Below are positions 18,951 to 28,365 of a stretch of DNA of 64,000 nucleotides, one piece after another. A program made the translations under genes and the position numbers. The notes below the pieces were generated by a model. That model did no database searches. It was not told the DNA's origin and saw nothing but the letters and a program-made list of their open reading frames with translations. Numbering within the stretch: the stretch's first letter is position 1; the number at the start of each line of letters is the position of its first letter. Origin of the DNA: Flavobacteriales bacterium (GTDB taxonomy: Bacteria; Bacteroidota; Bacteroidia; Flavobacteriales; Flavobacteriaceae); assembly GCA_027039975.1 (NCBI GenBank), contig JALWFE010000125.1, forward strand, positions 1 to 64,000. Reading direction: 5' to 3'.

Positions 18951-19113
18951 TGGAAAGTGCCAAGTGGAAAGTGGAAAGCGACAAAGTGCCAAGTGCGACA
19001 TCCGACACCGGACATCTAACGAAAACATACTATAATCCAAAAACGCACCCGGCACTTTTTACTAGGCACTTGGCACTCAAATAACCAGATAACCAAATAA
19101 CCAGTTAACCAAT
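18951..19113 (+). repeat. Composite intergenic repeat, locus 3; inverted-repeat partner of 23606-23820
   Basis: ccggacatctaacgaaaacat..aatccaaaaacgcac..ggcactttttactaggcacttggcactcaaataacca shared in reverse complement. Confidence 0.9.
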
Positions 19114-21310: not shown

Positions 21311-23602
21311 TTATTTATTTTTCAAAAGTAATTCTTCCAGCCGTTGGAGGCGTTTTTCTTGGTTTTGTAATTGCTTAGCTTGCTGTTGTAGTTTAGATTC
21401 ATATTCTTGTTTCATTGCTTCCATTGATTGTTCTTGCTCTTGCAATTTTGTTTTTTGTTCGTCTATGATTTGTTGTTGTTCTTGTACGGCTTTGACCAAA
21501 GGAACAACAAATTCCGCATAACGCAGTCCGTAGTAGTCATCAGCGTTTTTCGGTTTATCCACACCTGAGAAATCATAACCGAGCGAATTGGCGGCTTGTT
21601 CCACTTCTTGTGCGATAAAACCGGTTTGTACTTCAGCGGCTTTGAGCTTTTCGTCTTCCGGCATCCGCAAGCTGTCCGGAGTTTTGGTAAATTTGGCAAT
21701 GGCATCCATATCCAGATGATAGGTTACCGGCCGCAGTTTTTTGATAAAGGCCAAACCCGGCACATTTTCTTCAATATCCGTTTTAAACCTTGCATCCGAT
21801 ACATTACTCCAATTGGCATACCCACCTATACTGGTAACGTTACTGTTACCAATGCGCACTTGGTTGCTGGCATTGATATATACAATGAAGCCGATTGCGG
21901 TTGAATTATGGTAGTCTGAACCGAAATAAAAAGCTTCAGACCCAAGGGCGGTATTCCAATACCCTGTGGTGTTGGAATAAAGTGCCTCTGAGCCGATAGC
22001 GATATTCTGATACCCTGTGGTGTTGGAATAAAGTGCTTTATAGCCGGTAGCGGCATTACTAAGCCCTGTGGTGTTAGAATAAAGTGCATTATAGCCGGTA
22101 GCGGTATTACTAAACCCTGTGGTGTTAGAATAAAGTGCATTATAGCCGGTAGCGGTATTGTTTTTTCCTGTGGTATTGGAATAAAGTGCATTATAGCCGG
22201 TAGCGGTATTACTAAACCCTGTGGTGTTGGAAAACAGCGCTTTAGAACCAAAAGCCACATTCCATTTGGCGTGAAAAAAGTTACTAGCACCCGTTCCGTT
22301 GTTATACAAAGCCGAATCTCCTACGGCTACCAGGTTACTGCGGTTGGTATTTTTGTATAAAGCTTTGAAACCTATGGCTACATTGGAATAGCCGGTTGTG
22401 TTGGAACCTAAGGCGGCGTTACCTATAGCGGTATTGGCTATTCCGCTAGTGTTATCGTATAATGCGCCGCTTCCGTAGGCAGCATTATTGTGTCCCGTAG
22501 TATTAGTGTATAATGCCGCACTACCGGTAGCTGTATTGTGATGCCCTGTGGTGTTAGAATGCATACTTTCATTTCCATAGGCAGTATTGGCATTGCCGGT
22601 TGTATTGTTTAGTAAAGAACTATAGCCGGTGCCGGTATTATGGGAACCTGTTGTATTCGCTTCCAATGCTTGAAATCCTGTAGCAATATTGCTAGTACCC
22701 GTTGTATTTTGATGTAAAGCGTGGTATCCTAATCCGGTATTGTGATTATTGTTTTGATTATCATTGACGCCGGCACCAACTCCTAAGAATATTGATGAAC
22801 CGTTAGCATCGGAGCGGCCGTCACTTAATTCATCTATTTTGGTAGCGCCGGTAGGCAAGGTTACGGTATTGCCTTGGGTAATGCTGAGTTGGTTGCCGCT
22901 TACGGAAAGGTTTTGGATTTCGTTGGTTGCATCGGCATCGGCATCGTCGGCGTCTTTGATATAGCCCATAGCAGAGATGTCGGCATCGGATAAATGCGTA
23001 TCGCTGTCGGTAACGCTACCGCCACCGTTTGAAAGCGTAATGGTATTACCGGTTTTTGAAATAGTTTGAATTTCGTTAGCCGGGTCGTGGTCGGCATCGT
23101 TGGCGTCTTTGATATAGCCCATGGCAGAAATATCGGCATCGGTTAAGTGGGTGTCGTCGTCGCCATCTGATAAACCTGTAGGAATGTTGTTTAAGTCGCC
23201 GAAATTACCACTAAAAACATTACCGGCTTTTTCAGAAAATTTGGCGTAAGGTACGTATTTGAATTCGGTAGTCCCAAAGTCTTGAAAACCGTTACCGGTA
23301 TCAATTTCCACTTTTAAGAAATATGAATTACTTCCCCAGTCTATTGTAGAAAAATTACCTGAAACAACGGTGCCTTCTCCTACATTTACTGCTACAATAC
23401 CGTTGGCATCGGTAGTGGCGGTTTGGGTTTCTTGATATACGGCGGTTGAGCCGTTTTCCAATACGGTAAATTTAAAGGTTACCGATTGATTGTTCAATAC
23501 ATTACCATTGTCAGTAATAAGTGCTTTGTAGTTAAAGCCGTTTTGTGCTACTGCCATGCTTGTGATGACTAGCGCAATGATGCTGATAATTTGTTTTTTC
23601 AT
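21311..23602 (-). CDS. YadA-head-like beta-roll fibre protein with C-terminal S74 chaperone domain and coiled coil
   Basis: Signal peptide; many 17-aa NTATGYNALYSNTTG units; SDARFKTDIEENVPGLAFIKKLRPVTYHLD; coiled-coil QEQQQIIDEQKTKLQEQEQ. Confidence 0.85.
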   Translation of the reverse strand: MKKQIISIIALVITSMAVAQNGFNYKALITDNGNVLNNQSVTFKFTVLENGSTAVYQETQTATTDANGIVAVNVGEGTVVSGNFSTIDWGSNSYFLKVEIDTGNGFQDFGTTEFKYVPYAKFSEKAGNVFSGNFGDLNNIPTGLSDGDDDTHLTDADISAMGYIKDANDADHDPANEIQTISKTGNTITLSNGGGSVTDSDTHLSDADISAMGYIKDADDADADATNEIQNLSVSGNQLSITQGNTVTLPTGATKIDELSDGRSDANGSSIFLGVGAGVNDNQNNNHNTGLGYHALHQNTTGTSNIATGFQALEANTTGSHNTGTGYSSLLNNTTGNANTAYGNESMHSNTTGHHNTATGSAALYTNTTGHNNAAYGSGALYDNTSGIANTAIGNAALGSNTTGYSNVAIGFKALYKNTNRSNLVAVGDSALYNNGTGASNFFHAKWNVAFGSKALFSNTTGFSNTATGYNALYSNTTGKNNTATGYNALYSNTTGFSNTATGYNALYSNTTGLSNAATGYKALYSNTTGYQNIAIGSEALYSNTTGYWNTALGSEAFYFGSDYHNSTAIGFIVYINASNQVRIGNSNVTSIGGYANWSNVSDARFKTDIEENVPGLAFIKKLRPVTYHLDMDAIAKFTKTPDSLRMPEDEKLKAAEVQTGFIAQEVEQAANSLGYDFSGVDKPKNADDYYGLRYAEFVVPLVKAVQEQQQIIDEQKTKLQEQEQSMEAMKQEYESKLQQQAKQLQNQEKRLQRLEELLLKNK
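21918..22720 (-). repeat. 51-bp coding tandem repeats in fibre gene
   Basis: Repeated tgtggtgttagaataaagtgcattatagccggtagcggtattactaaaccc-like units. Confidence 0.85.
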
Positions 23603-23605
23603 GGT

Positions 23606-23820
23606 ATTTATTTTTGGTGATTTGGTTAATTGGTTATTTGAGTGCCAAGTGCCTAGTAAAAAGTGCCAAGTGCGTTTTTGGATTACAGGATGTTTTCGTT
23701 AGATGTCCGGTATCGGATGCCGGATGTCGGATGTCGCACTTGGCACTTTGTCGCTTTGTCGCTTGGCACTTTCCACTATCTTATCCCTCATCTCTTATCC
23801 CTTATCCCTTATCCAACTTG
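23606..23820 (-). repeat. Composite intergenic repeat, locus 4
   Basis: Reverse complement matches locus 3 across about 150 bp; ends in CAAATAACCAATTAACCAAAT toward fibre gene ATG. Confidence 0.9.
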
Positions 23821-23830
23821 CTACTAGTTG

Positions 23831-24310
23831 CTATTCTTTAATAATTTTAAAACTCTTCTTAAGTTTGTTATCTCTGTCAATGACAATCAACATATATCCC
23901 GTCGCAGTCAAACGGCTGATGTCAAAATTTTGCCGTGTACCGTTTACTTTGCGGTTGAAAATTTGTTTGCCTTGCAGGTTGTACAGATAGACTTCATAGG
24001 TGCCGTTTTGCGGTAGGTTGATGGTGAAATCGTCTTTAACGGGATTGGGATAAACACTAATGCCGGACAGGGTACCGTAGTCCGTAATGCCGAGTGCTTC
24101 AACGACATCCGGCCCTATAAAACCTTCGGATAAGTGCATATTACCTGTATCCACTTCTTGAATATTGGTTTCACCAACGGTAAAAATAACTTCTTGGTTG
24201 CCTGAGGTCATCGTGCCACCGGAGGTGGAAATACTGCTTTTTTTAAGGCTGACTTGTGCTGTTGCCACATACACAAACAGCATCAGGAAAAATAATAGAA
24301 TTCTTTTCAT
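23831..24310 (-). CDS. Small secreted protein with T9SS type A sorting domain
   Basis: Signal peptide; GISVYPNPVKDDFTINLPQNGTYEVYLYNLQGKQIFNRKV..GYMLIVIDRDNKLKKSFKIIKE. Confidence 0.88.
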   Translation of the reverse strand: MKRILLFFLMLFVYVATAQVSLKKSSISTSGGTMTSGNQEVIFTVGETNIQEVDTGNMHLSEGFIGPDVVEALGITDYGTLSGISVYPNPVKDDFTINLPQNGTYEVYLYNLQGKQIFNRKVNGTRQNFDISRLTATGYMLIVIDRDNKLKKSFKIIKE

Positions 24311-24434: not shown

Positions 24435-24530
24435 GAGTTGAAAGTTTATAACGTTCATAATGTTTATAACGTTTATAATGTTTATAATGTTCATAATGTT
24501 GAAATGTTGAAATGTTGTAATGCTGAAATA
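24435..24530 (+). repeat. GTTGAAAGTTTATAATG repeat with 9-bp (TTTATAATG/TTCATAATG)n array
   Basis: gttcataatgtttataacgtttataatgtttataatgttcataatgttgaaatgttgaaatgttg. Confidence 0.85.
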
Positions 24531-26384: not shown

Positions 26385-28190
26385 ATGAAACGTTTTGCGT
26401 TTATCATATTATATACCTTATTGGCAATTAGCCATTTAAATGCACAAGTGGATTTTAAAGCACGTGTTTCTAAAACCAGATTGAGCTCGGATGAACGTTT
26501 ACGTGTCAGTTTTACAATCAGGTCAAACACAACCAATATCAAACCACGTCATTTTACGCCCCCCGATTTTAAAGGCTTTTATAAAATCATGGGGCCAAGC
26601 ACGTCGCAGGAAGTTTCGATTATCAATGGCGACGTCTCATCAAGTTTTACTTATTCGTATATTTTACAACCGGCTAAAACCGGCACCCTTACCATTGGTC
26701 CGGCTTACGTCAATGTAGGAGAAAAAAGATATAGTACCCAAGCGGTAAAAATAACCGTAGTTAAAGGCAATTCGGAAGCAAAAAATCCGAATAATTCCAA
26801 CTATTCCGAATCATCCGGTTCGCCCAAAAATAATAATATAACCGTAGAAGGAAAAATTGATAAAGCCATATTGGTTGCGGAAGTGACCAAAACTAATCCG
26901 TATGTCAATGAAGCTGTGGGCTTAACTTATAAACTCTATATACCCCGGAATTACGGAGTTGTTAATTATAATGAAACCGGTCAACCGCAGTTCAACGGAT
27001 TTTGGGCACAAGACGTGTCAAAAAAAATATCCGGTCCTTTCCAAGGTGAAGTAAACGGTAAACCTTACATATATTATGTATTACGAAAAAAATTGTTATT
27101 TCCGCAACACGCCGGCAAACTAACCGTTCAACCATTGACTTTGGAAATAGATTTACAAGTCCCCGTTTACCGAAATTTTTTCGGTATGCGTGTGCCCGAT
27201 TACGAAATACAAAGGGTCAAACTGACATCCGGTAAAAAAACATTAAATGTAAAAAGTTTGCCGGATAATCAACCTATCGATTTTTCAGGTGCTGTCGGTC
27301 AATTCGATTTCAAAACCGTTATCAATAACAATCAAGTTAAAACGGGGGAACCGGTCAACATCAGTGTTCAAGTAAAAGGTACCGGTAATTTAAAATTGTT
27401 TGATTTACCTCAACTCAAAGCACCGGAAGGATTGGAAATTTACGACCCTAAACATACCGAGCAAGTTCAAACCACTTTTCAAGGCAACCGCGGATTGGTC
27501 AAAGACGATTATATTGTTGTTCCTAATCAACCCGGAAAATTTATCATTCCCGGACTGCGTTTTGTCTATTTTGACCCGAAAGCCAAACAATATATCACCA
27601 AAACCTCCGGTGATATCGTTCTGTTCGTAACAAACAGTGGCAATAACCCTGCTACCGGTAACGCCTCCAATCAAATAATTACAGGACAAACAAGCCATGC
27701 CGTCGATTTTAGATTTATCAAAGAAAATGCCCGTTTTAGAAGTAAAAAGAAAAAAGATTTTTATCAAAGTAAATTATTTTACCGGCTTATAGCATTGGCT
27801 TTTATTTTGGCATTATTAACTTTTGGATACTATAAATATTCGACAAATAAAATTTATGATGCCGAGTATGAGCGGCAAAAACGCAATAAAAGTTTGGCTA
27901 ACAAATTTCTAAAAGAAGCCAAAAAATCCATTGGTAATAAAGAAGAATTTTATGCCAAACTAGAAAAAGCTTTACACAATTTCATCAAAGCCCGTTTGAA
28001 TATCGATACGGCTGAGATGTCTAAAGATGTAATACGTCAAAAACTGGAAGGCAAAAATATAGCCAAAGAAAATATCGATCTTTTATTAGATTTATTAAAC
28101 CGTTGCGATATGGCCCGTTATGCACCGGCAACTACAGGCAAAATGGAAGACGATATCGCCGATGCCGAAAAACTGTTGAATGCCTTATGA
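26385..28190 (+). CDS. batD: BatD-family protein
   Basis: Signal peptide; ARVSKTRLSSDERLRVSFTI..; PGKFIIPGLRFVYFDPKAKQY; TM then cytoplasmic C-term. Confidence 0.88.
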   Translation: MKRFAFIILYTLLAISHLNAQVDFKARVSKTRLSSDERLRVSFTIRSNTTNIKPRHFTPPDFKGFYKIMGPSTSQEVSIINGDVSSSFTYSYILQPAKTGTLTIGPAYVNVGEKRYSTQAVKITVVKGNSEAKNPNNSNYSESSGSPKNNNITVEGKIDKAILVAEVTKTNPYVNEAVGLTYKLYIPRNYGVVNYNETGQPQFNGFWAQDVSKKISGPFQGEVNGKPYIYYVLRKKLLFPQHAGKLTVQPLTLEIDLQVPVYRNFFGMRVPDYEIQRVKLTSGKKTLNVKSLPDNQPIDFSGAVGQFDFKTVINNNQVKTGEPVNISVQVKGTGNLKLFDLPQLKAPEGLEIYDPKHTEQVQTTFQGNRGLVKDDYIVVPNQPGKFIIPGLRFVYFDPKAKQYITKTSGDIVLFVTNSGNNPATGNASNQIITGQTSHAVDFRFIKENARFRSKKKKDFYQSKLFYRLIALAFILALLTFGYYKYSTNKIYDAEYERQKRNKSLANKFLKEAKKSIGNKEEFYAKLEKALHNFIKARLNIDTAEMSKDVIRQKLEGKNIAKENIDLLLDLLNRCDMARYAPATTGKMEDDIADAEKLLNAL

Positions 28191-28250
28191 GTTGAAAGTT
28201 GAAAGTTTATAATGTTTATAAAGTTGAAAGTTTATAATGTTTATAATGTT
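28190..28250 (+). repeat. GTTGAAAG / GTTTATAATG repeats after batD
   Basis: gttgaaagttgaaagtttataatgtttataaagttgaaagtttataatgtttataatgtt. Confidence 0.85.
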
Positions 28251-28365
28251 AAATATGTATAAAATTTATGATGATTGTAAAGAAATGTTGTGTTATAACT
28301 TTTAATTCCTAAATCTTTTATGTTCTTATATGTCTTATATGGTTCAAAAAAATAACGAGTGAAAA

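Follow-up and report, generated by a model that had tools for sequence, protein, structure and literature searches.

Layout of the fibre gene

This locus raises the question of how a bacterial cell would use a fibre that ends like a phage tailspike, and by what route such a fibre would reach the surface and stay there. The gene, P0001, lies in a 64,000-nucleotide stretch of Flavobacteriales DNA (the whole of which we call the window). Our answer is a two-gene surface fibre, in which P0001 would form a trimer matured by its S74 domain, and the product of the adjacent gene, P0002, sorted by the type IX secretion system (T9SS), would bind the N-domain of the fibre and carry or hold it outside. 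We regard this proposal as evenly poised between right and wrong. The features that it draws on are collected in Table 1.

Table 1. Positions in the window of the fibre gene, the partner gene and their parts.
Feature	Position	Strand	Basis
P0001, fibre gene	21311..23602	-	Open reading frame and translation, 763 aa; class A N-domain plus S74
P0001 signal peptide, about aa 1-19, MKKQIISIIALVITSMAVAQ	23546..23602	-	Sequence; hydrophobic helix 2-17 in model
P0001 N-domain, aa 22-118, predicted Ig-like beta-sandwich	23249..23539	-	Model: seven strands, pLDDT mostly 81-92
P0001 linker, about aa 130-255, two DADISAMGYIKDA/D (DADISAMGYIKD) repeats	22838..23215	-	Sequence; pLDDT about 40-57
Head-repeat beta-roll, about aa 288-566	21905..22741	-	Strand every 17 aa in model
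51-bp tandem repeat, 5.6 copies	21948..22232	.	TRF score 400
Long coil, aa 423-447, NLVAVGDSALYNNGTGASNFFHAKW	22262..22336	-	In register in model
S74/ICA self-cleaving chaperone, aa 602-762, terminal helix 695-762 included	21317..21799	-	Pfam and 7dc3 profile match
Ser602, predicted nucleophile; cleavage expected immediately before it	21797..21799	-	Invariant in 35 relatives
Lys607, predicted second dyad residue	21782..21784	-	Invariant in 35 relatives
P0002, partner gene, 159 aa: signal peptide, SIGE module, T9SS type A sorting domain	23831..24310	-	Sequence, Pfam, NCBIfam
SIGE module of P0002, about aa 20-75, VGETNIQEVDTGNMHLSEGFIGPD	24086..24253	-	Conserved in alignment
T9SS C-terminal sorting domain (CTD) of P0002, aa 86-159	23834..24055	-	TIGR04183; Foldseek

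From the N-terminus, P0001 consists of a signal peptide, an Ig-like N-domain, a linker, head-type repeats and S74. The signal peptide, already called in the original prediction of a 763-aa surface fibre, is evident in the sequence and also appears as a hydrophobic helix in the single-chain AF2 model, which has a mean pLDDT of 74.3. Sequence and Pfam yielded no T9SS CTD, lipobox or beta-barrel anchor in P0001 itself. As was suggested at first, P0001 presumably forms a trimer and is probably located at the surface. A Foldseek comparison of the whole-fibre model with the PDB gave no match at E <= 0.001; the same comparison with viral models matched repeat fibres of phages and giant viruses. Short tandem repeats (e.g., AAGTGCCAAGTGC and GTTTATAAT) also occupy intergenic spacers of the window, at 18951-18995, 23603-23830, 24444-24529 and 28190-28280.

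The S74 domain and its dyad

An S74-type domain had been recognised from the letters alone, with a profile match set as a check; Pfam Peptidase_S74 (PF13884) does match aa 602-674, scoring 42.9 bits where the cut-off is 22. The catalytic pair, first taken to be Ser-Asp, had to be revised. Ser602 and Lys607 are both invariant across 35 aligned relatives, and Asp603 is only nearly so. Since the invariant partner of Ser602 is Lys607, we reject the Ser-Asp dyad in favour of Ser602-Lys607. Of 180 distinct S74 sequences, 178 have both the Ser and the Lys of the SDxxxK motif. S578 and K583 of MYRF are described as the counterparts of the phage dyad (PMC3742443), and by the same motif Ser602 is equivalent to S578 and Lys607 to K583.

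A single-sequence search of the PDB returned nothing useful, and only the profile reached MYRF. The profile of the P0001 S74 region matches the MYRF ICA structure 7dc3 at E = 6e-4, over nearly the whole domain and the terminal helix. Because that helix is covered in the match, the C-terminal coiled coil, initially described as a module of its own, belongs to the S74/ICA chaperone, and the model agrees. In Bd3182 of Bdellovibrio, the same cut is made and is lost in a Ser-to-Ala mutant (PMC10769870). By homology to a domain that has been studied in depth, S74-driven maturation of P0001 is well supported, and P0001 itself would be expected to cleave before Ser602.

The head-repeat roll and its long coil

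The 17-aa repeat array is well founded. There are 16 head-type cores at aa 288-554, where 500 shuffles of that stretch gave a mean of 0.6 and a maximum of 4. A beta-roll prediction had been named beforehand as a check, and the single-chain model contains such a roll, with a pLDDT of about 90 up to aa 500, dropping to about 55 by aa 566. The near-identity reported for some of the 51-bp DNA repeats is also evident, the closest pair of units being identical at 50 of 51 bases. The units of this array are recently duplicated head units.

A segment within the array had been read as a non-repeat insert. It is instead one lengthened coil of the same beta-roll, of 24 residues rather than 17, with predicted strands at 408-410, 425-427 and 449-451 carrying the roll on. 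The module, NTDRSNLVAVGDSALYHNGxGA...GSKALY, is found again in many S74 relatives in Bacteroidota, with as many as seven copies in the chain of one relative. A foreign domain is ruled out by this recurrence and by the segment's place as a longer coil of the roll. When the DNA pattern of the long coil was sought in viral contigs, only two matched, both in ordinary 17-aa units.

The N-domain and a mosaic family

Two main N-termini are found on S74 proteins, which we call class A (as in P0001) and class B. The class A N-domain occurs with S74 and also with several other C-termini. The N-domain is encoded in 69 of 119 Bacteroidia genomes and S74 in 80. The source genome has three S74 genes; its second class A gene is on contig C13 and has no SIGE gene alongside. 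Pfam and NCBIfam offer no curated family above cut-off for either the N-domain or the SIGE module of the partner; a match of Big_1 to the N-domain falls below the cut-off in 17 of 29 relatives. In the S74 tree, which rests on few columns and so is rough, classes A and B are intermingled, and well-supported branches force at least seven changes involving class A. The S74 of the window falls in a mostly cellular group of the same tree.

It has to be asked whether P0001 is a phage remnant or a phage tailspike gene captured recently. Its profile matches the tailspike family phrog_4636 at 5.6e-79, and 103 phage records have similar repeats or S74. Against this, P0001 is flanked by housekeeping genes of the chromosome, and the scanned neighbours include no phage gene, which bears out the lack of phage context remarked on at first. 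P0001 has a signal peptide and an N-domain, and neither the class A nor the class B N-terminus is present in viral contigs with S74. Viral S74 regions are for the most part at 24-37% identity, and the group in which the S74 of the window is placed is mostly cellular. On these grounds, we rejected the phage remnant and consider any such origin highly improbable.

Two further observations concern the distribution of these genes. One genome of the same order (G035), only 1.9 Mb in size, has 29 S74 matches, many of them in clusters of very long N-domain genes, parts of which are in L099 and L100. Class B S74 genes also appear on contigs labelled as Gammaproteobacteria and Alphaproteobacteria MAGs (L157 and L167), which are possibly misbinned.

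The partner P0002 and the SIGE module

The neighbour of P0001 was predicted to be T9SS-sorted, and this proves to be right. The CTD of P0002 scores 40.9 bits with NCBIfam TIGR04183 (cut-off 23) and 45.3 bits with Pfam Por_Secre_tail (cut-off 27), and its model matches the solved T9SS CTDs 8qb1 and 8glk by Foldseek with target TM values of 0.77 and 0.85. A signal peptide is judged present from the sequence. Between signal peptide and CTD is a module that we call SIGE, a name coined here from a common motif; modelled alone, it gives low confidence. The source genome encodes SprA of the T9SS translocon (2536 bits), and among its 41 CTD matches, no full-length protein other than P0002 has SIGE together with the CTD. 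P0002 is upstream of the fibre gene. The spacer of 228 bp is wider than in most pairs, and the Bacteroidota promoter box (TAnnTTTG) is absent both from it and from the 360 bp upstream of P0002, so that P0002-P0001 is at most a putative operon. In two other genomic loci, the partners beside L307:2971-4539 and L309:2965-5316 have SIGE followed by an apparent type B ending (gliding-type, NGDG motif) in place of type A.

In other Bacteroidota, eight S74 proteins end in a T9SS CTD in the same chain, with the dyad residues intact in all (L098:4983-6074, L331, L333, L334, L337, L345, L348 and L353). The existence of these fusions makes T9SS export of such proteins plausible. After cleavage, the CTD of a fusion would leave with the S74 piece, and therefore it fits better as an export signal than as a permanent anchor. 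Class B S74 fibres do without a partner and without a CTD in their own chain, which shows that some fibres of this type can dispense with a CTD.

These facts bear on whether the fibre leaves the cell by a dedicated route. P0001 could stay periplasmic, or exit only through outer-membrane vesicles or lysis, as a structural or scavenging protein, and its own lack of a T9SS CTD, lipobox and beta-barrel anchor is what such a protein would show. The conserved T9SS-sorted neighbour argues otherwise, as do the S74-CTD fusions in relatives, which suggest that some proteins of this kind are exported by T9SS, and the mosaic adhesive trimer (MAT) fibres of Bdellovibrio bacteriovorus, of similar layout, which sit on the predator surface (PMC10769870). 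We consider a fibre limited to the periplasm, vesicles or lysis improbable.

Pairing and co-occurrence of the two genes

The pairing with a T9SS-sorted protein, first seen at this one locus, turns out to be conserved across Bacteroidia. If the count is limited to S74 and N-domain genes that have sufficient flank, a small SIGE-CTD gene is alongside 26 of 58 class A genes and only 2 of 70 class B S74 genes (Fisher p = 6e-9). In a second sample across the class, drawn from the top N-domain matches in each genome together with some second picks, a SIGE gene adjoins 34 of 64 N-domain genes (29 upstream, 5 downstream), and some of the pairs overlap stop-to-start by 4 bases. Looked at from the other side, with one usable SIGE gene per genome, an N-domain gene is directly downstream in 23 of 29 cases at gaps of 6-249 bases. 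The remaining six comprise one with a fibre gene upstream (L404, seen also in L324), one that is three genes away from it in a run with a PorP/SprF-like gene, and four orphans located elsewhere.

The relationship is also strictly nested at the level of whole genomes. SIGE proteins are found in 53 of the 69 genomes with an N-domain and in none of the 50 without one (119 Bacteroidia genomes, p = 9e-20); all 53 SIGE genomes encode the N-domain. The searches score no more than the top candidates in a genome, and the numbers that they give per genome are therefore lower bounds. About half of the sampled N-domain genes have no adjacent SIGE gene.

Two gene arrangements deserve description. At L409 (G062:C118), a run of genes on one strand holds a SIGE-CTD gene, one coding for a secreted protein of 429 aa, one that by eye resembles PorP/SprF, and an N-domain gene whose fibre product exceeds 1500 aa. 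At L405-L408, in four genomes, SIGE-CTD genes without a fibre gene occupy a recurring place beside an alcohol-dehydrogenase-like gene.

The conserved fibre/SIGE gene pair appears to be undescribed. We found no earlier description in the open-access literature, which takes in few of the subscription papers and preprints. The genes pep25/lbp26 of Flavobacterium collinsii (PMC9950754) were considered, and no relation to the pair was established.

Co-variation of the SIGE module and the N-domain

Across 63 pairs, the distances between SIGE modules and those between N-domains correlate with a Mantel r of 0.74, the best of 2000 permutations being 0.12. With the window's own type left out, r is 0.65 and the best permutation 0.21. 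In 41 of 47 cases, the nearest N-domain outside the family has a partner of the same type; family labels cover part of the 63-pair set, and the effect of species descent is still partly present. In seven comparisons within a family, same-type genes of a different family have an N-domain at an equal or smaller distance, with the best of many values being set against a single value. Part of the co-variation may come from species descent. To the extent that sequences can tell, it supports contact between the SIGE module and the N-domain, short of proof.

The main competitor to the two-gene surface fibre accepts a self-maturing trimer and takes P0002 to be an independent T9SS cargo, the genes being neighbours through co-regulation or the same task, for example as separate adhesion factors that make no contact. 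It would explain readily why half of the N-domain genes have no nearby partner, why class B S74 fibres manage without one, and why SIGE orphans occur in four genomes. It has greater difficulty with a strictly nested co-occurrence (53/53 versus 0/50), with the co-variation of the adjacent domains, and with adjacency maintained over many families at very short gaps. We think it unlikely, while giving it more weight than any other competing account.

A proposed two-gene fibre

The two-gene surface fibre draws on the observed architecture, the conserved dyad, the CTD, SprA, the gene pairing, the co-occurrence and the co-variation. We propose that Sec exports P0001 into the periplasm, where three chains would assemble under the C-terminal S74/ICA chaperone. 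The chaperone would then cut itself off before Ser602 by means of the Ser602-Lys607 dyad, and the trimer left behind would have a beta-roll shaft joined by a flexible linker to an Ig-like base. P0002 would likewise be exported by Sec and would pass through the outer membrane by T9SS via its CTD. If the SIGE module binds the fibre N-domain, P0002 would either carry the fibre out or hold it on the surface, presumably as an adhesive.

A more general form of the proposal is that a split system of this kind is widespread in Bacteroidia, with SIGE binding the N-domain specifically and a single dedicated partner exporting or anchoring fibres with interchangeable tips, so that the CTD would act in trans. 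We put this forward tentatively, with slightly less assurance than the proposal for P0001 and P0002 themselves. If this is true, T9SS would be used in yet another manner, a second protein providing the sorting signal. Common as the N-domain and the SIGE module are among Bacteroidia, no curated family represents either of them above cut-off. The pair allows the proposal to be tested directly in a flavobacterium that can be cultured.

Comparison with known systems

Phage tailspikes of the endosialidase type (PHROG 4636) resemble P0001 in having head-type repeats followed by S74 with a Ser-Lys dyad. Unlike P0001, the S74 tailspikes of phages are without the N-domain and are found in phage gene neighbourhoods. 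YadA-type trimeric autotransporters share with P0001 the repeat pattern and a predicted beta-roll resembling the YadA head, and the description of the repeats as YadA-head-like therefore stands as a statement about fold. As a statement about family it does not: P0001 matches no YadA family in Pfam, even with E allowed up to 1, it lacks the YadA membrane anchor, and its C-terminus is S74. The identification as a YadA-type adhesin is rejected for lack of both anchor and match. Among T9SS cargo (TIGR04183), P0002 is a clear member; it differs from others in being unusually small and in having only SIGE besides the CTD, with the fibre itself being without a CTD.

The nearest known kind is the MAT fibre (PMC10769870). 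MAT fibres have a signal peptide, a conserved beta-rich N-domain (about 130 aa in MATs) and a long fibre, a layout that P0001 is predicted to resemble. Their tip is either S74 with SDxxxK or a different one, and tips are swapped among the members of the multigene family that they form. The genes described here are similar in that the N-domain occurs with and without S74, and S74 is common to different N-termini. The differences are a YadA-like head-repeat roll, as predicted from a single chain, in place of the beta-helix solved for MATs; a linked gene for a T9SS-sorted partner; and a different phylum. The comparison, which is of layout and not of N-domain sequence, supports the statement that P0001 works like a MAT fibre. 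According to the MAT authors, it is unknown which surface element holds the fibre N-domain (PMC10769870). Through gene linkage, nested co-occurrence and co-variation, P0002 is offered as a specific candidate for such an element in another phylum.
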